Under the pieces are notes generated by a model. That model made no database searches. It had not been told where the DNA came from and saw nothing but the letters and a program-made list of their open reading frames with translations. Shown here piece by piece: positions 34,996 to 43,891 of a DNA stretch of 64,000 bases (its first letter is position 1; the number at the start of each line of letters is the position of its first letter). The position numbers and the translations under genes were made by a program. Source of the stretch: Alphaproteobacteria bacterium (GTDB lineage: Bacteria > Pseudomonadota > Alphaproteobacteria > Micavibrionales > UBA2020); the NCBI GenBank assembly GCA_025934695.1, contig JAICWS010000001.1, positions 1,331,301-1,395,300 of the forward strand, written 5' to 3'.

Positions 34996-35026
34996 GGGTA
35001 ATTTGCGTGGATTTTCAGGGTTTTGC

Positions 35027-37075
35027 ATGAGCGGTAGCGGCACTAAATTCCTGGCAAGCACACTCCTCTATCTTAATTTGTTGCCCGGTTCGCTGGGCGC
35101 AGCCGCCGGGCCTGTAGCGCCGCGACCGCCGATTGCGCCTGGACAGACAACCACCGCTGCCTCGCGTTTCACCGAAAAGGCCGCCGCCGACGATGCACCC
35201 GCGTCCGGCGATCCCCAAGCGCAGCCACCCGCACAACCGCCCCCTTCCCAGCTGGCTGCCAAGGAGGCCGAGATCGACGCGGCTCTTGCCCGGCGGCGCG
35301 TCAATGAAACCTTGCGGTCCATCGCCATGGACGATTTCAAAAAGACGAGCAAATTAGCGGAAGACGGTTACTCGAAGGACCTAAAAAAGAAGCAGAGCGG
35401 CCTTTCGAAATACCTCCATAAGAACAACCCCGCCATGACGAAGGCCGTCATCGTCGACCCCCTCAAGTTCGACGCGGCGCTGGCCCTCGGCATGTCTCCG
35501 CAGCTGGCGACGCAGACGATCCTCGGCCTGCAGCACGTCTCTCCAGGCGACGAGTTGATCGCCAACATCACAAGCCACATGAAGTCCGATGACATGTCGG
35601 CGTTCGCCGCGACAGATTCCTATACCCAGGACGCCTCCGCGCATTGGGATTTCTTCAACAAAAAGCCGCAGGCCTGCGTGATCGTGCCGGAACCGGGCGC
35701 CGATCTCGCCGCGGCGGTGCCAGGACTGTCATACCAGGAGAATCTCGATTATTCGAACCTGCACGAAGGCTGGCACTGCAAAAACACCATGCTCGACTAT
35801 TCGAGCGTGCCGAAGGAGGTTTACGCGGGCGTCGACCAAGGGGCGCCGGAGAAATCGATTGGCCACGAAGACCAGCTGAAGGTCTTCTCCATCATGGACA
35901 AGGGCGAGTCACTTTCCGACGTCGGCGCGCTCGGCGACATGATCCGCAAGGGCCACGGCCTCAACGTCATCGACAAAGTGCAGGCCTGGCGGAACAACAA
36001 TTCCGAGGATTACGGGCATTGGGCGAGCGCCGCGCTGGAAGGCCTGAAGAAGAAGATAAACGAGATGGGAATCGACAAGTTCCGAAAGCTGAACGACAAG
36101 GACGCCGGTAAGCTGTATGAAACCGTCGTGAATGAGAACGCCTATACGCCGCGCGAGGCGGAAGTCATTTTCCAGTACCGCAGGAAAGCCGACGATGCGG
36201 ACCGCGCGGAGCTCCGCGACTGGAAATCGAATTTCGACACGCTGGAAACCATGATGTCGACGGGCGCCGCGGTCCATGACGGTGCGGATACGAAGACACT
36301 CGACAACGCCATCGCGCAGGCGCAAGTGCCGCAAACCCGGGACGCGCTCTCCGCCCTGCGCAGCCAGATCAACACAATGGGCGTCGACAAATTCCGGGCG
36401 CTTGGTGCTGACGATGCCGCCAAGCTGGCGGAACATCTCACGGCCAGCGGCAAGGTGCCGGACGGTATCGCGACCAATGCCGCGGACTATTGGGCCGCGC
36501 CGCCCGACGACCGGAAGGCGATGGAAAAAATGATCGCCGATTACAAGACAGCCATTCCCAAGGCGCTCGACATCATGAAGCCTTACGGCGAACCGCCAAC
36601 GGACGCGGAAAAAGCGGCGCAAGCGCAGGCAATAGCCGACGCGGGGGCGCAGGCGAACGCTGCCGCGAAGCCGCTTTCGCCGCAGGAGCAGGAGGTCTTC
36701 GCGCAGCTGGCAAAGTGGGACGCGGCGACGATGTTGCAGGACCGCGCCTTCGCCAAGGACGGCAAGATCACGCCCGCCACGCTGATCAAAGCCTATGGCA
36801 AGATGCAGGAAGAATTGCGCGCCCAGCTGGTGAAGACGCCGGACGATCCCTTGCTCCACGCCAAGGTGGGCAAGCTGCAGGCTTCCTTTATCTCGACGGT
36901 CCAGGATCTCGATTATGTCGACGCCAATGCCCAGCGCGGGGTGAACATCGTTGCCAAAGAGCCCGCCCTGAAAGAGGCGCTGAAGAAGCTGCCGCCGATG
37001 CCCCATACCAAGCTGGTCCAGCTGCCTGACGGTACCGTGTTCAAGCGCGCGCCCCAGCCGGGGCCGGGGGTGTAG
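35027..37075 (+). CDS. Predicted secreted zinc metallopeptidase, HExWHC family, paralog 1
   Basis: 682 residues from an ATG with CAGGG upstream. Residues 5-28 resemble a signal peptide (KFLASTLLYLNLLPGSLGAA), followed by a Pro/Ala linker. The core shares with the next two proteins IVDPLKFDAALALGM, QACVIVP, LHEGWHC (His246-Glu-x-x-His250) and GESLSDVGALGDMIRKG, whose Glu294 lies 48 residues after His246. This is the arrangement of a gluzincin zinc site (HExxH plus distal Glu). It uniquely repeats an internal module (INEMGIDKFRKLNDKDAGKL and INTMGVDKFRALGADDAAKL). The C-terminal helical module has DGKITPATLIKAYGKMQ. No known peptidase family recognised. Confidence 0.72.
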   Translation: MSGSGTKFLASTLLYLNLLPGSLGAAAGPVAPRPPIAPGQTTTAASRFTEKAAADDAPASGDPQAQPPAQPPPSQLAAKEAEIDAALARRRVNETLRSIAMDDFKKTSKLAEDGYSKDLKKKQSGLSKYLHKNNPAMTKAVIVDPLKFDAALALGMSPQLATQTILGLQHVSPGDELIANITSHMKSDDMSAFAATDSYTQDASAHWDFFNKKPQACVIVPEPGADLAAAVPGLSYQENLDYSNLHEGWHCKNTMLDYSSVPKEVYAGVDQGAPEKSIGHEDQLKVFSIMDKGESLSDVGALGDMIRKGHGLNVIDKVQAWRNNNSEDYGHWASAALEGLKKKINEMGIDKFRKLNDKDAGKLYETVVNENAYTPREAEVIFQYRRKADDADRAELRDWKSNFDTLETMMSTGAAVHDGADTKTLDNAIAQAQVPQTRDALSALRSQINTMGVDKFRALGADDAAKLAEHLTASGKVPDGIATNAADYWAAPPDDRKAMEKMIADYKTAIPKALDIMKPYGEPPTDAEKAAQAQAIADAGAQANAAAKPLSPQEQEVFAQLAKWDAATMLQDRAFAKDGKITPATLIKAYGKMQEELRAQLVKTPDDPLLHAKVGKLQASFISTVQDLDYVDANAQRGVNIVAKEPALKEALKKLPPMPHTKLVQLPDGTVFKRAPQPGPGV

Positions 37076-37078
37076 CAC

Positions 37079-38626
37079 ATGGACGATGCGCCCGATAACC
37101 TGCCGGATACTTTCGCCGCCCACGTTCTCGATGCAGCGGGAGAGGTGGGCCTGGGCGGCAGCCAGTTCCTGGCTTCCGACGCGGCGAAGCGGCGCACTCC
37201 ACCGTTGGCCGTCCCGCAAGGCCACGCCGGCAGCGACGCCCGGCGCGATGACATCAACCAGGCGCTGTTGGCGCAGGCGCGGCGGAACTACCCGTCGCTG
37301 ATGAACGGCGTCCGCACAGAATATTCCGCCTATCTTGAAGGGCTGCAGCAGCGAACTAATGCCGATCTGCGCACGGAAGGCAACCGTTTCCACTCGCAGG
37401 CCGTCATCCTCGACCCCGCGAAATATGACGCCGGGATCGCGCTTGGCATTAGGGGGCCGGAGACGGTCGGCGCTCAATTGCAGGCGCAGGGCGCGGCGAC
37501 AGCGCCCGGCGTGCCGGAAATGGCGGATGCCCGCATGTCGTCCTATTATCCGACGAAGTTCGGAAACCCGACCTACACCCAAGCCCCCACGGCGCTGCAG
37601 AATCCGAATAACGGCGGCGGGCTGCAGGCCTGCGTCGTCGCTCCAGCATCCGACTATGCCATGATAGACGGTCTGAACATTCCGGGTCTTTCCACCGCCG
37701 ACCGCATCAAGTTCCTTGACCGTCACGAAACCTGGCATTGTCGGGACGACCGCTATTCGATGGCGGGCATCAATCCCGACGATCTCAAGACCATTGACCC
37801 CAACAATGACAAGACGCTTGCGGACAACGCGGCCGGCTGCAAGGTCCTTGCCACCCTGTACCAGAAGGAAGCCTTTGCAGACACCGGCGCGATCGGGTCA
37901 ATGCTGCGGGAAGGCTATGACATGTCGCTGCTCGACAAGGTCGCGAACTGGCGCAAGGGCAGCCCCGCTGACACGATCCATATCACGACGCCGGTGCTGC
38001 AGGGCCTGAAACAGGAAATCGAGGACATAGGCGGCATTGACAGGTTCCGCGCCTTGAGCGATGCGCAGGCTAAGGAGCTTTATTACAAGACTGTCGACAA
38101 ATACGGCGTCAGCGGCCCGGCCGTGCAGACGGCGCTGAAATACAAGCTTGCCGACCCGCTCCAGACCATCGGCCACCAGATCGACGCGGTTTTCGACCGG
38201 GACTCCAGCAAGGGAATTGATTTCTACCGTTACTTCAGCGCAACCGGCAAGCCCGCGCCGGGAACGAGCCTGACCGCCGACCAGCAGCGCCAGCTCGATG
38301 CCTATAATCCGCAGGCGTCGATGGAGGACCAGGCCTTCAGTACCAGCGGCAAGGTGACGCCCGAAACCATGATCGGCGCCTATACCCGGATGCAGGACCA
38401 GTTCCGCACCCTGATCAAGCAGCATCCGGAAGATCCCCTTTACCCGCAGGAGATGGCAAAATTGCAGAAAGCCTTCACCGACAACCTGCAGCGCATGGAT
38501 TATGCAGCGGTGAACAACCGCTATGGCGTTAAAATCGAGAACGTCGAACCGTCACTGGCGGCATTTTCAGGCGGACAGCAGCGGCCGGCAGCACCAAGAA
38601 TGCTGCCGCCGGCGATAAAGCCCTGA
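37079..38626 (+). CDS. Predicted zinc metallopeptidase, HExWHC family, paralog 2
   Basis: 515 residues, starting three bases after the previous stop, so translationally coupled. No signal peptide is evident, unlike its neighbours. Shared motifs: VILDPAKYDAGIALGI, QACVVAPAS, DRHETWHC (His216, Glu217, His220) and KEAFADTGAIGSMLREG with Glu264, again 48 residues on. The C-terminal module has TSGKVTPETMIGAYTRMQ and MDYAAVNNRYGVKIENVEPS. Either it stays in the cytoplasm, is exported another way, or its true start lies in a leader that cannot be seen. Confidence 0.7.
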   Translation: MDDAPDNLPDTFAAHVLDAAGEVGLGGSQFLASDAAKRRTPPLAVPQGHAGSDARRDDINQALLAQARRNYPSLMNGVRTEYSAYLEGLQQRTNADLRTEGNRFHSQAVILDPAKYDAGIALGIRGPETVGAQLQAQGAATAPGVPEMADARMSSYYPTKFGNPTYTQAPTALQNPNNGGGLQACVVAPASDYAMIDGLNIPGLSTADRIKFLDRHETWHCRDDRYSMAGINPDDLKTIDPNNDKTLADNAAGCKVLATLYQKEAFADTGAIGSMLREGYDMSLLDKVANWRKGSPADTIHITTPVLQGLKQEIEDIGGIDRFRALSDAQAKELYYKTVDKYGVSGPAVQTALKYKLADPLQTIGHQIDAVFDRDSSKGIDFYRYFSATGKPAPGTSLTADQQRQLDAYNPQASMEDQAFSTSGKVTPETMIGAYTRMQDQFRTLIKQHPEDPLYPQEMAKLQKAFTDNLQRMDYAAVNNRYGVKIENVEPSLAAFSGGQQRPAAPRMLPPAIKP

Positions 38627-38659
38627 CTTTTTTTATATGACCTTTTGAGGAACCGGTAT

Positions 38660-40258
38660 TTGAACGACCCGAACGCCAAACCAGGCGCACTTCCCATCGC
38701 CGGCACCCTTACCGCGGCCTTCCGCCGTTTTGCCCTGCGCACCACGCTGATTGCCGGCGTCATGGGCGCGACCGGCCCCACAGGAACAGAGGCCGAGAGC
38801 AATGCCCCCGCCGTCGGTCAGCCCGGGCCGGTATCCGGCACGGCGCCATCAGCCCCGCCCCTTTTAAGCGTCCGGGAAAAGAAACGCCGGGCCCGCATCC
38901 GCGAGGCGCTGCTGGAAAGCGCAAGGGGTGATCTGGACAGCCTCGAAGCCGGCTCCGAGACCGGCTATACCCGCGACCTCCAGGGCCTGGGCAGTCGGTT
39001 GACCGGTGAATTGCAGGCCGCTCACTCCACCGTCCATAACAAAGTCGCCTTCGTCGACCCGCAAAAGCTCGACGTGGCCCTGTCGCTTGGCTTTGCGCCG
39101 GATTATGCCGTTGGCAGGCTCCTGGCCGAACAGAGGATTCATATTCCGGACAACCAGCTGGCGCAGGCCGGCCAGAAAGCCACGAGTTATTATGAGTCAA
39201 AATTCGGGATAAAGACCTATACCCAGGACCCGACGGCCTTAACCAACCTGCGCAACCCAAATCCGCGGGCCTGCGTGGTCGTGCCCTCGTCCGAACGGTC
39301 GCCGGATATCGACATTCAGGGCCTCTCGCGGCCGGACATTGTCGAATTCACCAATCGCCACGAAGGCTGGCACTGCCTGGACGGCAAGTACAACCTGCGC
39401 CACCTCGACCCGGAGAAGCTCGAGGCCGTGAGGAAAGGCACCCTCGGCTCCCAGATCAATGACCGCACCGCGCTTGAAATCTATGCCACGATATATCGCA
39501 AGGAGGCGCTGGCCGACGTGGGCGCGACCGGCGATATGATCCGCGCCGGCAAGGGGCTCGACCTGATCGACAAGGTCGCCGACTGGCGTGCCCAGGATCC
39601 CAAGGACCTCCAGCACCTCTCGTCGCCCGTGCTGAAGGGGCTGAAAGCCAAAATCGGGGAGATCGGGCTCGATAACTTCCGCAAGTTGAGCGATACCGAC
39701 GCGCAGAAGCTTTATTTCGAGGTGACGGACAAATGGGGCATGACCGGCAGGAGCTTGCAGACCGGCCTGCGCTTCGAAATGGCGAAGGGCGCGGAACGCC
39801 AGGGCTATCTCGACCGTTTCGGCAAGGACCAGGACGTGACCCGGGCGCTGCTGCTCGAGACCTATGTCGCGAAAGCGCGGCCGGATCAGCCTGCGGCGGG
39901 CCTCAGCGGGACCGATGCGGCGCTGGCAGCGCAGCTTAAAAACTGGGACGCCGACAAGCTGCTGGACGATAAGGCCTTTGAAATGGGTAAGAAAATCACG
40001 CCGCAAACGATTATCGCCGCCTATAACCGGCTGCAGGGAGACCTGCACGGCAAGATGACGTCTGACCCGGACAACAAGCTCTATCCCCTCCAGGCGACGA
40101 AGCTGCAGCAGGCGTTTTTGACCCACGCGCGGGAGCTGGACTATGTCGGCGCGAACGCCGCGCGCGGAGTTGACATCGTCAAGACCGAGGCGGCGCTGAA
40201 GAGTTTCGCCGAGCCGCCGAAAAAAAATGCCTCCGCGGGTGCTCCAGTCAGCGGCTGA
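38660..40258 (+). CDS. Predicted secreted zinc metallopeptidase, HExWHC family, paralog 3
   Basis: 532 residues from a TTG seven bases after GAGGAA; a TTG five codons earlier overlaps that site. The N terminus RRFALRTTLIAGVMGATG may be a signal or anchor. Shared motifs: FVDPQKLDVALSLGF, RACVVVPSS, NRHEGWHC (His234, Glu235, His238) and KEALADVGATGDMIRAG with Glu282, 48 residues on. The C-terminal module has GKKITPQTIIAAYNRLQG and LDYVGANAARGVDIVKTEA. It follows paralog 2 by 33 bases and ends the cluster. Confidence 0.72.
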   Translation: MNDPNAKPGALPIAGTLTAAFRRFALRTTLIAGVMGATGPTGTEAESNAPAVGQPGPVSGTAPSAPPLLSVREKKRRARIREALLESARGDLDSLEAGSETGYTRDLQGLGSRLTGELQAAHSTVHNKVAFVDPQKLDVALSLGFAPDYAVGRLLAEQRIHIPDNQLAQAGQKATSYYESKFGIKTYTQDPTALTNLRNPNPRACVVVPSSERSPDIDIQGLSRPDIVEFTNRHEGWHCLDGKYNLRHLDPEKLEAVRKGTLGSQINDRTALEIYATIYRKEALADVGATGDMIRAGKGLDLIDKVADWRAQDPKDLQHLSSPVLKGLKAKIGEIGLDNFRKLSDTDAQKLYFEVTDKWGMTGRSLQTGLRFEMAKGAERQGYLDRFGKDQDVTRALLLETYVAKARPDQPAAGLSGTDAALAAQLKNWDADKLLDDKAFEMGKKITPQTIIAAYNRLQGDLHGKMTSDPDNKLYPLQATKLQQAFLTHARELDYVGANAARGVDIVKTEAALKSFAEPPKKNASAGAPVSG

Positions 40259-40341
40259 GCGCGTACAAATCGTACGTGCGTTTAATGACGGTGGCGCAAC
40301 ACGAAGTGAGCAGTCTAACCCCCTTGAATTTTCAAATTTAC

Positions 40342-40369
40342 TTTACAAATTTTCGAATCGACATATAAC
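40342..40369 (+). promoter_or_regulatory. Promoter of the polyamine decarboxylase
   Basis: TTTACA (40342-40347), a 16-base spacer and TATAAC (40364-40369). The expected start, near 40376, coincides with the first base pairs of the structured leader. Confidence 0.65.
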
Positions 40370-40375
40370 CTAGAA

Positions 40376-40446
40376 GTATGAGGGCACGGCAGCGAATGAT
40401 TCGCGTGCGGTTATCTCATAAACGCCCTGAGGAGGGTGTGCATGAA
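40376..40446 (+). promoter_or_regulatory. Structured mRNA leader that sequesters the ribosome-binding site (speF-like)
   Basis: The 71-base leader folds by inspection into an outer stem (TATGAG 40377-40382 with CTCATA 40415-40420) enclosing a hairpin (GCGAA-TGA-TTCGC, extended by GCAC/GTGC, 40384-40408). A second hairpin, ACGCCCT-GAGG-AGGGTGT (40422-40439), has a loop and 3' strand that contain the GAGGAGGG ribosome-binding site. An alphaproteobacterial leader motif named speF, upstream of ornithine decarboxylase genes, is known from comparative work; identity with it is inferred from position and cannot be checked here. Confidence 0.5.
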
Positions 40447-41646
40447 ATGGACGATTATGACGGCCCTGACGAGGTGGTGCGACGACGCCGCCCAGACATC
40501 CCGGTAACCTGTTTCCGCCCCGCGGCGCTCGAAAACGCCGCCAAATGGTTCCTCAGCAACTTCCCCGGCAAAGTCCTCTACGCGGTTAAAGCCAACCCCG
40601 CCAAATATGTCCTCTCGGGCCTCTACGCCGCCGGCATCCGCCACTACGACGCCGCCTCCATCCCCGAGATCCAGCTCGTCCGCGAGCTCTGCCCCGGCGC
40701 CCACATCGCCTTCATGCATCCGGTCAAAAGCCGCCCGTCGATCGAGCAGGCTTATTTCGACCATGGCGTACGCGATTTCTCCTTCGACAGCATCGAAGAG
40801 ATGGAAAAGATCGCCGTCTGCACGGGCAAAAGCAAAGACCTCGGCCTGTTCCTGCGCCTGGCCGTTCCGAACACCTCGTCCGAGCTGCCTCTGTCGGGCA
40901 AATTCGGCTGCCTGCCTGAAAAGGCCCCCGAAATCCTGAAAGCGGCCCGCAAGATTTCCAGGAAGCTGGGCATCTGCTTCCACGTCGGTTCGCAGACGAT
41001 GGACCCGCAGGCCTATGTGACGGCCCTGAGCCTCGTCGGCGGCATTCTGCGCAGCATTCCGCGCACCCGCGTCGACGTCATAGACGTGGGCGGCGGCTTC
41101 CCCTCGATTTACCCCGACATGGCCCCACCTGCCCTGTCCGACTACAAGACCGCCATCGAGAGCGGCTTCGACAAGCTTCCCCACCCGGAACGCTACGAGT
41201 TCTGGTGCGAGCCCGGGCGCGCCCTGGTCGCCGAGAGCGCCTCGGTGGTCGTCCAGGTAGAGCTTCGCAAGGACGATGTCCTTTATATTAACGATGGAAC
41301 CTATGGCAGCCTGTTCGACGCAGGCCACCTTGGTTTCCGTTACCCGGTTCGTCTGATCCGTCCGACGCCGGGAGGCACCAGTGCGCCGCACAAGGGTTTC
41401 CGCTTCTACGGCCCGACCTGCGACAGCATTGACTATATGCCAGGCCCCTTCTTCCTGCCGGAAGACGTCAGGGAGGGGGATTACATCGAGATCGGCCAGC
41501 TCGGCGCCTACGGGAATACCATGCGCACGGACTTCAACGGCTTTTCGGCCCATGAAGTCGTGTCTGTGAAAGCCCCGCCGCTGGTCACGCTCTACGATGA
41601 CACCCAGGAAACGACGGATACACAAGAGCTTGTCGCCGTAGGTTAA
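40447..41646 (+). CDS. PLP-dependent ornithine/lysine decarboxylase, alanine-racemase fold
   Basis: 399 residues of the fold type III (eukaryotic-like) decarboxylases; makes putrescine from ornithine, possibly also cadaverine. Motifs: LYAVKANPAKYVLSGL (PLP lysine), HYDAASIPEIQLV, ICFHVGSQ, VIDVGGGFPSIYP, WCEPGRALVAESA, GPTCDSIDYM (catalytic Cys and substrate Asp) and QLGAYGNTMRTDFNGF. The ATG at 40447 follows a hairpinned ribosome-binding site; upstream in-frame codons fall in the leader. First gene of a polyamine cluster with a DHS-like gene and a ureohydrolase. Confidence 0.9.
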   Translation: MDDYDGPDEVVRRRRPDIPVTCFRPAALENAAKWFLSNFPGKVLYAVKANPAKYVLSGLYAAGIRHYDAASIPEIQLVRELCPGAHIAFMHPVKSRPSIEQAYFDHGVRDFSFDSIEEMEKIAVCTGKSKDLGLFLRLAVPNTSSELPLSGKFGCLPEKAPEILKAARKISRKLGICFHVGSQTMDPQAYVTALSLVGGILRSIPRTRVDVIDVGGGFPSIYPDMAPPALSDYKTAIESGFDKLPHPERYEFWCEPGRALVAESASVVVQVELRKDDVLYINDGTYGSLFDAGHLGFRYPVRLIRPTPGGTSAPHKGFRFYGPTCDSIDYMPGPFFLPEDVREGDYIEIGQLGAYGNTMRTDFNGFSAHEVVSVKAPPLVTLYDDTQETTDTQELVAVG

Positions 41647-41771: not shown

Positions 41772-42836
41772 ATGAAAAACCTGAAAGCGGTCAAGACCAA
41801 GCCGCACCCTAAGAGCAACCGCAAGGCAGCCCTGCTGAGCACGCCGATCGAGCATATCGACATCAAGTCCTTCGATGCCCGTCCGATCATCGAAGGCATG
41901 AACAAAATGTCCTTCACCTCCCGCGACTTGGGGCGCGCCTGTGAAATCTTCAACACCATGCTGCAGGACAAGTCGGCGACCAGCATCCTGACGCTCGCAG
42001 GCTCGACCTCGGCCGGCGGCTGCATGGACCTCTACACCGAGATGGTGAAAAGCAACATGGTGGACGTGATCGTCGCGACCGGCGCTTCCATCGTCGACAT
42101 GGACTTCTTCGAAGCGCTCGGCTTCAAGCATTATCGTGCGGACAACCAGGTCGACGACCGCGACCTGCGCGACCTCTACATCGATCGCATCTACGACACC
42201 TATATCGACGAGGAAGATCTCCAGGCCGTCGACCATACGATCTTCGAGATCGCGCAAAGCCTGGAACGCCGCCCCTATTCCTCGCGCGAATTCATCTGGG
42301 AGATGGGCAAATACCTGACGAAAAAGGCGAAGAAGAAAAACTCGCTCGTGCAGACCGCCTATGAGCACGGCGTGCCGATCTTCTGCCCCGCTTTCGTCGA
42401 CTCCTCGGCTGGTTTCGGCCTCGTGCTGCACCAGAAAAAGAACCCGAAGAACTACATGTGCATCGACGCGGTCGCGGATTTCCGCGAACTCACCGACGTC
42501 AAGGTCGCGGCCGGCACCACCGGCCTGCTCATGATCGGCGGCGGCGTGCCGAAGAACTTCACGCAGGACACGGTCGTCTGCGCGGAAATCCTCGGCCACA
42601 AGGACGTCGACATGCACAAATACGCGATCCAGGTCACCATCGCCGACGTACGCGACGGCGCCTGCTCCTCCTCCACGCTCAAAGAAGCCTGCAGCTGGGG
42701 CAAGGTCGACGTGGCGCTTGAGCAGATGGTCTTTGCGGAAGCGGGCTCGGTCATGCCGCTCCTGGCCTCCGACGCCTATCACCGCGGCCACTGGAAAAAG
42801 CGCAGCCGCCGCAACTGGCAGAAGCTGTTTAAATAA
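41772..42836 (+). CDS. Deoxyhypusine synthase-like enzyme, probable polyamine aminobutyl transferase
   Basis: 354 residues of the deoxyhypusine synthase family: LTLAGSTSAGGCMDLYTEMV, DVIVATGASIVDMDFFEALG, YEHGVPIFCPAFVDSSAGFG and EACSWGKVDVALEQ, in which the lysine corresponds to the catalytic Lys of the eukaryotic enzyme. Bacteria have no eIF5A to modify, so a role as homospermidine synthase or in a related NAD-dependent transfer is likely, consistent with putrescine-making genes on both sides. The start follows AGGAAGAGAG. Exact product unproven. Confidence 0.85.
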   Translation: MKNLKAVKTKPHPKSNRKAALLSTPIEHIDIKSFDARPIIEGMNKMSFTSRDLGRACEIFNTMLQDKSATSILTLAGSTSAGGCMDLYTEMVKSNMVDVIVATGASIVDMDFFEALGFKHYRADNQVDDRDLRDLYIDRIYDTYIDEEDLQAVDHTIFEIAQSLERRPYSSREFIWEMGKYLTKKAKKKNSLVQTAYEHGVPIFCPAFVDSSAGFGLVLHQKKNPKNYMCIDAVADFRELTDVKVAAGTTGLLMIGGGVPKNFTQDTVVCAEILGHKDVDMHKYAIQVTIADVRDGACSSSTLKEACSWGKVDVALEQMVFAEAGSVMPLLASDAYHRGHWKKRSRRNWQKLFK

Positions 42837-42847
42837 AAAGTTTGTGT

Positions 42848-42957
42848 CGCCCCGGCGAAAGCCGCGGCCCACGGACTACATTAGGCCCGTAACACAAGTC
42901 TATCCGGTTAAATTTGCACGGACCAAGTCCGTGGATTCCGGCCTTCGCCGGAATGAC
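42848..42957. repeat. Palindromic intergenic repeat, family A copy 4
   Basis: Left arm CCCCGGCGAAAGCCGCGGCC plus CACGGAC; right arm GTCCGTGGATTCCGG plus CCTTCGCCGGAA. It lies between the DHS-like gene and the ureohydrolase inside an apparent operon and ends 20 bases before the ureohydrolase ATG, so it could modulate read-through. Confidence 0.75.
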
Positions 42958-42976
42958 AATGATGTGGAGTTTGAAA

Positions 42977-43891
42977 ATGCAATTCATGACACCTTCGGCC
43001 GGCTTCCTCGGCCTGCAGAAGAAGGACGCGGCCTCGGCGAAAGACGCCAATATCGTCGTCATCCCCTTCGGCCTCGAGAAATCGGTTTCTTACGGCGGCG
43101 GCACGGCGAAAGGCCCGGCGGCGATGATCAAGGCCTCGCACCAGGTCGAACTGTTCGACGACGAGTTCTGGAGCGAACCGTTCCGCAAATACGGCGTCCT
43201 GACCGCCAAGCCGGTGAAGATCAGCAAATCGGTGCCGCAGGCGCTCGAGCAGCTGGATGCGGAAGTCGAAGCCGTGCTGAAGATGGGCAAATTCCCCTTC
43301 GTCTTTGGCGGCGAACATTCGATCACCGCGGGCTCCATCCGCCCCTTCGCGCGCCGCTATAAGGACCTGCATGTGCTGCATTTCGACGCGCATGCCGACC
43401 TGCGCGACGGCTATGACGGGGAACATTATTCCCATGCGGCGGCCCTGCGCCGCGTGCTCGATCACAAGAGCGTGACCAAGCTATGCAGCTTCGGCATCCG
43501 CAATATTTCGCAAAGCGAAATCCCCTTCCTCGAGAAGAGCAAGGGCCGCGTGAAAATCTATTGGGCGCGCGAAAAGGCGAAATGGGACATCAAGGAAATC
43601 GTCAGCCACTACAAGGGCAAGAACGTCTATGTCACCTTTGATATCGACGGGCTCGACGCCAGCCTGATGCCCGCGACCGGCACGCCCGAGCCGGGCGGGC
43701 TATTCTGGGACGAATGCATGACGATCATCCGCGAAGTCGCAAAAGTTTCGAATTTTGTGGGCGCGGACGTCAACGAACTCGCCCCGCGGCCCGAGCTGCA
43801 TTCCTGCGACTTCCTGGCCGCCAAGCTCGCCTACAAGATCATGAGCTACGCATTCCTGGTCAGCAAGGCGAAGGCGAAAAAGGCCGCCTGA
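42977..43891 (+). CDS. speB: Agmatinase-type ureohydrolase
   Basis: 304 residues of the arginase/agmatinase superfamily, which releases urea from agmatine to give putrescine. The manganese site is complete: GGEHSIT (His), LHFDAHADLRD (Asp-x-His-x-Asp) and TFDIDGLDASLMPATGTPEP (Asp-x-Asp). GLEKSVSYGGGTAKGPAAM near the N terminus matches agmatinases better than arginases. The start was chosen for GGAG seven bases upstream; the frame extends into the repeat. The presence of both a decarboxylase and a ureohydrolase suggests two putrescine routes, or that the enzyme acts on another guanidino compound. Confidence 0.88.
   Translation: MQFMTPSAGFLGLQKKDAASAKDANIVVIPFGLEKSVSYGGGTAKGPAAMIKASHQVELFDDEFWSEPFRKYGVLTAKPVKISKSVPQALEQLDAEVEAVLKMGKFPFVFGGEHSITAGSIRPFARRYKDLHVLHFDAHADLRDGYDGEHYSHAAALRRVLDHKSVTKLCSFGIRNISQSEIPFLEKSKGRVKIYWAREKAKWDIKEIVSHYKGKNVYVTFDIDGLDASLMPATGTPEPGGLFWDECMTIIREVAKVSNFVGADVNELAPRPELHSCDFLAAKLAYKIMSYAFLVSKAKAKKAA

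Follow-up and report, generated by a model that had tools for sequence, protein, structure and literature searches.

What governs the amount of enzyme made from the polyamine-pathway decarboxylase gene at 40447-41646, whose leader (40376-40446) had been described in an earlier note as a translational switch? The window considered here is the whole stretch of DNA that was analysed (64,000 nucleotides), taken from a 4.1 Mb alphaproteobacterial genome. All features lie on its + strand unless stated otherwise.

Decarboxylase Gene and Its Neighbors

The gene at 40447-41646 encodes a decarboxylase of 399 aa with an alanine-racemase fold (Orn_Arg_deC), identified with Pfam and NCBIfam, and its closest solved sequence is the lysine/ornithine decarboxylase 5gjm. 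It is followed by a gene for a deoxyhypusine-synthase-like 1,9-bis(guanidino)-5-aza-nonane synthase (41772-42836, start picked by eye; NF002699, 566.8 bits against a cut-off of 500) and by a gene for a ureohydrolase of the agmatinase family (42914-43891, start uncertain; TIGR01230, 199.2 bits against a cut-off of 174.3). According to the description of the Thermus route in PMC10981699, arginine is converted to agmatine, then to a bis-guanidino intermediate, and finally to homospermidine. The decarboxylase and the two genes downstream suggest an agmatine-to-homospermidine route, and because this gene set matches that of Thermus, the window decarboxylase may use arginine. The earlier assignment to the polyamine pathway is upheld, but in view of the scores of the synthase and agmatinase genes that follow, the substrate may be arginine instead of ornithine. 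A search of the window's family (f1) covered 18 genomes and found an orthologue of the decarboxylase in 15 of them.

Upstream of the leader, three successive long ORFs (690, 515, and 537 aa) occupy 35003-40258 and appear to be mutual paralogues, sharing for example RHE.WHC; the third has no match in Pfam or NCBIfam.

Predicted Leader Fold and Its Conservation

The stems that had been proposed for the leader are all present in the sequence, including an outer stem TATGAG (40377-40382)/CTCATA (40415-40420), an inner hairpin GCGAA (40392-40396)/TTCGC (40400-40404) with a TGA loop, and a 7-bp hairpin (40422-40428/40433-40439) with the Shine-Dalgarno sequence GAGGAGGG (40429-40436) in its loop and 3' arm. 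RNAfold of 40376-40446 gives exactly these stems (-29.8 kcal/mol, z = -3.63, matched by none of 200 shuffles), and the z value depends on the ends of the folded stretch, being -2.02 for 40376-40465, -1.94 for 40376-40500, and -1.68 for 40340-40446. The same stretch in relatives gave z values of +0.96 in L003 (same genus), -0.18 in L006, -1.10 in L007, -0.13 in L008, about -1.1 in L009-L011, about -0.5 in L012 and L018, and -1.77 in L013. The fold is strong in the window, weak or absent in the other genera of the family, and also lost in L003.

The expectation that the stems would covary in relatives mostly fails. Two-sided change was found in 1 of 23 predicted pairs among six same-genus leaders; the 5' hairpin, with GATTCG held fixed, showed no gain over shuffles (Fisher p = 0.106, 7 lineages), and the Shine-Dalgarno hairpin was overall no better than shuffles (Fisher p = 0.211, 8 lineages). 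No conserved covarying stem sequestering the Shine-Dalgarno was found among the family orthologues. In addition, the GATTC conserved in the 5' hairpin doubles as a CcrM/GcrA-type GANTC site, which could account for its conservation without any RNA structure. The nested stem (40377-40420) and the hairpin around the Shine-Dalgarno (40422-40439), assessed by RNAfold and by comparison with relatives, are real as predictions and local to the genus.

It is doubtful that the hairpin at 40422-40439 hides the Shine-Dalgarno until a ligand or temperature opens it, which could add, within the genus, to the dual start described below. Besides the low z value of the window fold, the hairpin beats shuffles in L001 (p = 0.042) and L005 (p = 0.027), it reaches over the decoy ATG in L004, L005, and L014, and the odc1-type RNA of relatives sequesters the Shine-Dalgarno by a pseudoknot with strong covariation. 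However, the hairpin is not kept in L003 or outside the genus, it fails to beat shuffles in L002 (p = 0.256), two-sided change is confined to the single pair mentioned above, and the mean unpaired probability of the Shine-Dalgarno is still 0.50-0.67 in the genus members that bear the hairpin. Of the proposed switch layout, the start region as a site of translational control almost certainly stands, while a conserved occluding stem does not.

Membership in the speF family (RF00518), also raised for this leader, was not borne out, as the Rfam search gave no match at 40250-40520 even at E 10. No speF was found above the cut-off in the whole genome (best score 16.7 bits, elsewhere, against 37), and the 14 matches among 385 genomes of the class all precede another decarboxylase subfamily, 31-36% identical to the query decarboxylases. 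Both are alphaproteobacterial leaders located before a COG0019-type decarboxylase, speF as described in PMC1273637, but the window leader matches speF in neither sequence nor structure, and speF is tied to another decarboxylase subfamily; a speF identity was therefore rejected. Rfam over the window gave a tRNA as the sole match, and over the leaders of relatives it gave nothing, since the matches listed are due to chance and far below the cut-off.

Translation Start of the Decarboxylase

The decarboxylase N-termini of all families compared align residue for residue from the second start, 40447, so the 40447 frame is the real protein. We consider it highly improbable that the decarboxylase truly starts in frame at ATG 40378, in which case the leader and the decoy start would be coding sequence and the decoy an artefact. 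The window frame is open from 40378, but upstream of 40447 this frame closes at -24 in four orthologues (L002, L004, L005, and L014) and at -30 in L006, and the alignment of N-termini at 40447 also speaks against it. With the extension closed in five orthologues, this start was rejected. A longest-ORF caller would begin the decarboxylase at 40378 and so add a false extension of 23 residues.

Decoy Start and Overlapping uORF in the Window's Family

The Shine-Dalgarno GAGGAGGG is followed by two ATG codons, ATGAAATG at 40442-40449, the second being the decarboxylase start (40447) and the first (40442) preceding it by 5 nt in another frame; the distances from the Shine-Dalgarno to the first and second ATG are 14 and 19, respectively. 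The earlier note had overlooked the uORF that begins here. The first ATG opens an overlapping out-of-frame uORF of 21 codons, MKWTIMTALTRWCDDAAQTSR (40442-40507), whose stop TAA (40505-40507) is made of main codon 20, GTA, plus an A. A start codon (NTG) at -5 is found in 14/15 family orthologues, against at most 6/15 for any other offset from -3 to -30, and it is kept although the leaders differ between genera. Locus L003 has an intact decarboxylase gene without the decoy, and that frame is open there for 135 codons. The Shine-Dalgarno spacing in the family is 12-14 nt to the decoy and 17-19 nt to the main start in 13/14 loci (10 and 15 in L006), while the optimum spacing in E. coli is given as 13-14 (PMC9841429).

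The uORF has 21 codons in 11/14 loci of the family, with GTA at codon 20, and 11 codons in the other 3/14, with GTA at codon 10. Third-base A at codon 20 reaches 0.73, the highest of 164 four-fold columns, closely followed by codon 12 (0.67). Selection on the stop was not significant within f1. Synonymous shuffling of the 21-codon genes yielded a uORF as short 30-70% of the time, and shuffling of the 11-codon genes did so 3-7% of the time, because GTG with a following A also makes a stop. What supports the f1 case is consequently its start codon and spacing, together with the parallel in other families.

No conserved uORF peptide was found in f1 by comparison of third bases, which vary within the uORF as elsewhere (1.22 vs. 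0.92 bits; two-fold sites 0.63 vs. 0.69). Because f1 keeps the start and the stop and not the peptide, start-site competition is favored over a signalling peptide. The decoy start with its overlapping uORF is conserved and probably limits the amount of enzyme.

Same Device in Other Families

Further loci were collected by genome searches of the class, of the order with Sphingomonadales-type genomes, and of the order of family f70, all scored with one script. The 60 loci of the Sphingomonadales group consist of 6 named records (assigned by similarity) and 54 loci from 314 matching genomes, the latter being the 30 best, 20 hand-picked, and 4 from another search. Family f70 contributed 31 loci, and 40 further loci of its order were taken, from 153 matching genomes; the second 20 of these were picked mostly from one family. 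The main start was taken as the in-frame start nearest the aligned position, and 13 duplicate loci were removed before counting. Locus L075 was left out of one locus set because the search pattern did not accommodate its loop.

The -5 start was found in 60/60 loci of the Sphingomonadales group, 31/31 of f70, 2/2 of f123, 1/2 of f109, and 1/1 of f152; these sequences are related, so the counts are not independent events. It was also present in 16/20 and then 20/20 of the further f70-order loci, and in 8/53 of the remaining class loci, which are distant and for which the choice of main start is uncertain.

The uORF of the Sphingomonadales group is 11 codons long in 58/60 loci and 9 codons long in 2/60, and the spacing is 12 nt to the decoy and 17 nt to the main start in 60/60. 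Main codon 10 is GTA, CTA, or TTA before G in 59/60 loci and CTG before A in 1/60, which makes a stop every time, while NTA accounts for 2.6% of 3831 later Val/Leu codons. The column of this stop codon has third-base A at 0.98, and none of the other 159 four-fold columns exceeds 0.25. Similarly, codon 30 of f70 has third-base A at 0.97, with 0.58 as the next highest value (200 columns). That the decoy stop is upheld by rare NTA codons in both the Sphingomonadales group and f70 strongly indicates translation of the uORF and selection on its stop. Judged by comparison, the decoy start and the spacing are conserved, and the stop is conserved strongly in two other families and weakly in f1.

Third-base variation within the uORF is low in the Sphingomonadales group (0.38 vs. 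1.13 bits) and in the second odc1-type (f189-type) group (0.38 vs. 1.05 bits), and third bases are slightly held in f70 (0.56 vs. 0.75 bits). In the Sphingomonadales group and the f189-type loci, where third bases are held, the uORF may also have a peptide or RNA role. The position of the uORF stop ranges from 2 to 50 codons between families.

The leaders before these start pairs are of several kinds. Those of the f70 order (L077, L078, L083, L133-L160, and L161-L172) carry, ahead of the dual start, a conserved block of their own (roughly TTCCGGCGGAC...CTAACGCCGG..TGGGTT...). This block had no Rfam match in the subset searched and is possibly a further RNA element belonging to this gene. Loci L173, L174, L177, L235-L237, and L240-L247 have an odc1-like pseudoknot whose first helix differs (GCCAATC/GATTGGC) and which covaries with the Sphingomonas version, together with ATG/ATG starts and a 13-codon uORF ending in TAG. 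Yet other leaders are found in L175, L180, L238, L239, L248-L252, L079, and L080, which have ATG/GTG start pairs and 11-codon uORFs, and several of which share a conserved CTCGCCAAGTCCG..TGGGGCTGGCG block farther upstream.

Comparison with odc1 and Other Dual-Start Systems

The odc1 (uORF-25-1) motif was described in Sphingomonas and other Alphaproteobacteria (PMC8632094, RNA Biol 2021). According to that description, Sphingomonas odc1 has a pair of UUG starts separated by two bases, a uORF of 11 residues, and a pseudoknotted RNA over the ribosome site; the uORF is always 11 codons long and its peptide is largely conserved. In E. coli reporters carrying one Sphingomonas leader, both starts were active and the uORF was about 3-fold stronger (PMC8632094). 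In the openly accessible papers searched, the odc1 motif was found in PMC8632094 only, and within the same scope nothing beyond the cited papers was found on a uORF at an alphaproteobacterial ornithine decarboxylase, on overlapping starts, or on leaders of Sphingomonas decarboxylases.

The window resembles odc1, as described there, in that the starts are two nucleotides apart, a single Shine-Dalgarno is present, the first start opens a short out-of-frame uORF, and the second start belongs to an ornithine-decarboxylase-like gene of the same subfamily (PMC8632094). Such paired starts with a short out-of-frame uORF are found in the window and in 14/15 family orthologues. It differs from the published odc1 in having ATG/ATG instead of UUG/UUG and 21 codons instead of 11, with no odc1 RNA and no conserved peptide. 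An 11-codon uORF with a conserved peptide was not found in this family, the window having 21 codons and f1 11 or 21.

A model of the odc1 RNA, R1, was reconstructed here from 25 loci of two groups rather than from the published alignment. In R1, 94% of cells are paired and 8/16 pairs show two-sided change; 0/500 shuffles were as good by the cell and covariation measures, and the signal collapses when the partners are slid. Searches with R1 gave no match in the window at E 10, none in its own genome at E 1, and nothing convincing in the f1 leaders (best E 0.53 and 0.92), and odc1 RNA in the window was therefore rejected. Matches in three other genomes of the family (E 0.01-0.75) lie away from the leader, and those in six loci of other families (E 0.009-0.021), mostly short and over the start region, were not counted as members. 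As far as sequence comparison goes, the window is odc1's dual-start device with an unrelated leader.

The leaders of genus g2 (L012 and L013) contain a hairpin, CCGGCG/CGCCGG, whose loop AACCTTGT is complementary to the Shine-Dalgarno ACAGGGTT, a possible candidate for a pseudoknot resembling that of odc1.

Other dual-start systems include E. coli pqiA and tamA and Thermus rnpA-rpmH, where one start region likewise serves two overlapping frames and the Shine-Dalgarno distance decides between them (PMC9841429). Their starts overlap or nearly do so, and no regulation is shown for them in the account of PMC9841429, whereas 5 nt separate the window-type starts, whose conservation spans several families and orders. 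In the polyamine modulon of E. coli, starts far from the Shine-Dalgarno are described as polyamine-sensitive, with excess spermidine being repressive (PMC7177335). The main start in the window is also far from its Shine-Dalgarno, but the modulon genes have a single start (PMC7177335).

Proposed Mechanism of Start Competition

We consider it reasonably likely that an ambiguous initiation site with a decoy uORF caps decarboxylase synthesis by start competition. A single Shine-Dalgarno would serve two start codons 5 nt apart and in different frames, the decoy being placed at the optimal distance and the enzyme start about 5 nt too far. Most initiating ribosomes would then translate the 21-codon uORF, whose peptide sequence is not conserved, and stop inside the enzyme gene, while a minority would start the enzyme. 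The balance between the starts would cap the enzyme and could be shifted by the polyamine level, by structure near the Shine-Dalgarno, or by initiation factors; termination-reinitiation and, in the genus, the Shine-Dalgarno hairpin may add to the competition. By analogy with Sphingomonas, both starts are presumably used in the window. The uORF stop would limit the cost of decoy translation, because out-of-frame reading can otherwise be long, as in the 135 open codons of L003.

The odc1 description did not decide which of the RNA, the peptide, and start choice is important (PMC8632094). The lineage of the window keeps the paired starts and their spacing and neither the RNA nor the peptide, which points to start-site competition, and we infer that it is the competition and not the peptide that matters. 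The comparison extends the device well beyond Sphingomonas and provides a clear bacterial case of a conserved overlapping uORF whose stop is upheld by rare codons in the enzyme frame.

Termination-reinitiation, in which ribosomes finishing the uORF slide back so that the uORF delivers them to the enzyme start, appears unlikely as the main explanation. In f1, the stop lies 28-60 nt beyond the main start; in L176 and L179, the decoy has two codons and its TGA overlaps the main ATG, a classical ATGA coupling; and reinitiation at overlapping starts has been reported (PMC9841429). However, the stop position varies widely between families, from 2 to 50 codons, and mutation of a start codon in Sphingomonas abolished the expression of its own frame, the result in PMC8632094 being given for that frame.

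Under start competition, polyamine would be the signal for feedback, by analogy with E. coli. Such feedback would follow if excess spermidine represses starts far from the Shine-Dalgarno as described there (PMC7177335), which offers a simple idea: a polyamine-making gene has its start codon too far from the Shine-Dalgarno. In a wider reading, which we put forward tentatively and regard as rather improbable in its entirety, the start pair would be a rheostat used across several orders with exchangeable RNA. In front of it would stand an odc1 pseudoknot, an unrelated leader of another kind, or no conserved RNA, the last being the case in the window. The ribosome itself would sense polyamine, an excess directly disfavoring the far main start while the uORF takes the diverted initiations, and the window promoter would also be gated by methylation through the cell cycle, as considered below.

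Promoter and GANTC Sites

A promoter with TTTACA (40342-40347), a spacer of 16 nt, and TATAAC (40364-40369) was recognized by eye at 40342-40369. A similar TTTACA-TATAA-like promoter is present in 15/15 family orthologues, with a spacer of 16 nt in 14 and 18 nt in one, while between promoter and start the leaders have little else in common between genera. A strict sigma70 scan found no promoter. For the proposed transcription start at 40376, the promoter itself is supported by eye and by the orthologues, the scan did not recover it, and the similar promoter in all 15 orthologues makes a start near 40376 plausible.

Two GANTC sites accompany this promoter. Site 1 (GAATC, 40355-40359) is located between the two promoter elements, with 4 nt separating it from TATAA, and is present in 14/15 orthologues, L006 having AAATC; the distance to the -10 is always 4 nt in these 14 loci. 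Site 2 (in TGATTCG, 40398-40402) belongs to the first part of the transcript, overlaps the 3' arm of the inner hairpin, and is also present in 14/15, being lost in L013. Every orthologue has at least one GANTC. Both sites have the YGAKTCK form, at 40354-40360 (minus strand) and at 40397-40403 (exactly TGATTCG), and both lie within about -40 to +40. In the window, GANTC occurs 76 times against 301 expected (about four-fold rarer) and YGAKTCK 10 times against 94 expected (about nine-fold rarer), and two of the ten YGAKTCK are at the decarboxylase promoter. This scarcity looks as if methylation sites were strongly avoided.

The genome encodes GcrA (PF07750, E 3.3e-46, over the cut-off), which was found in 14/17 family genomes, and a CcrM-like methylase with a full-length alignment to NF050803 (625 bits, below the cut-off of 830). 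In the descriptions of PMC3667746 and PMC7987155, TGATTCG/YGAKTCK is the GcrA-activating form in Caulobacter, and Brevundimonas is without such a preference. The window shares with the promoters of these genera a YGAKTCK-form GANTC and the presence of GcrA and a CcrM-like methylase, and differs in that no polyamine operon appears among the promoters given in those sources. In the openly accessible papers searched, nothing on a link between GcrA and polyamines was found beyond the cited papers.

The conserved signal may therefore lie in the DNA, as a methylation-dependent GcrA/CcrM promoter linking polyamine synthesis to the cell cycle, which would be compatible with the dual start. We regard this as a serious possibility, though somewhat short of an even chance. 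The conservation of the promoter and of each GANTC site, the constant 4-nt spacing, the depletion of GANTC and YGAKTCK, the two genes in the genome, and the exact match of 40397-40403 to the activating form (PMC7987155) together suggest a GcrA/CcrM-dependent promoter as a fair hypothesis. Against it stand the CcrM match under the NCBIfam cut-off, the loss of one site each in L006 and L013, the lack of this GANTC pattern in related loci of other families, and the occurrence of only one other similar promoter in the genome. A GcrA regulon was rejected, since strict promoter patterns gave one and two sites in the genome. The sole other promoter-like site with a GANTC in its spacer is L071 (G000:C3:208609-208635), a candidate second GcrA target.
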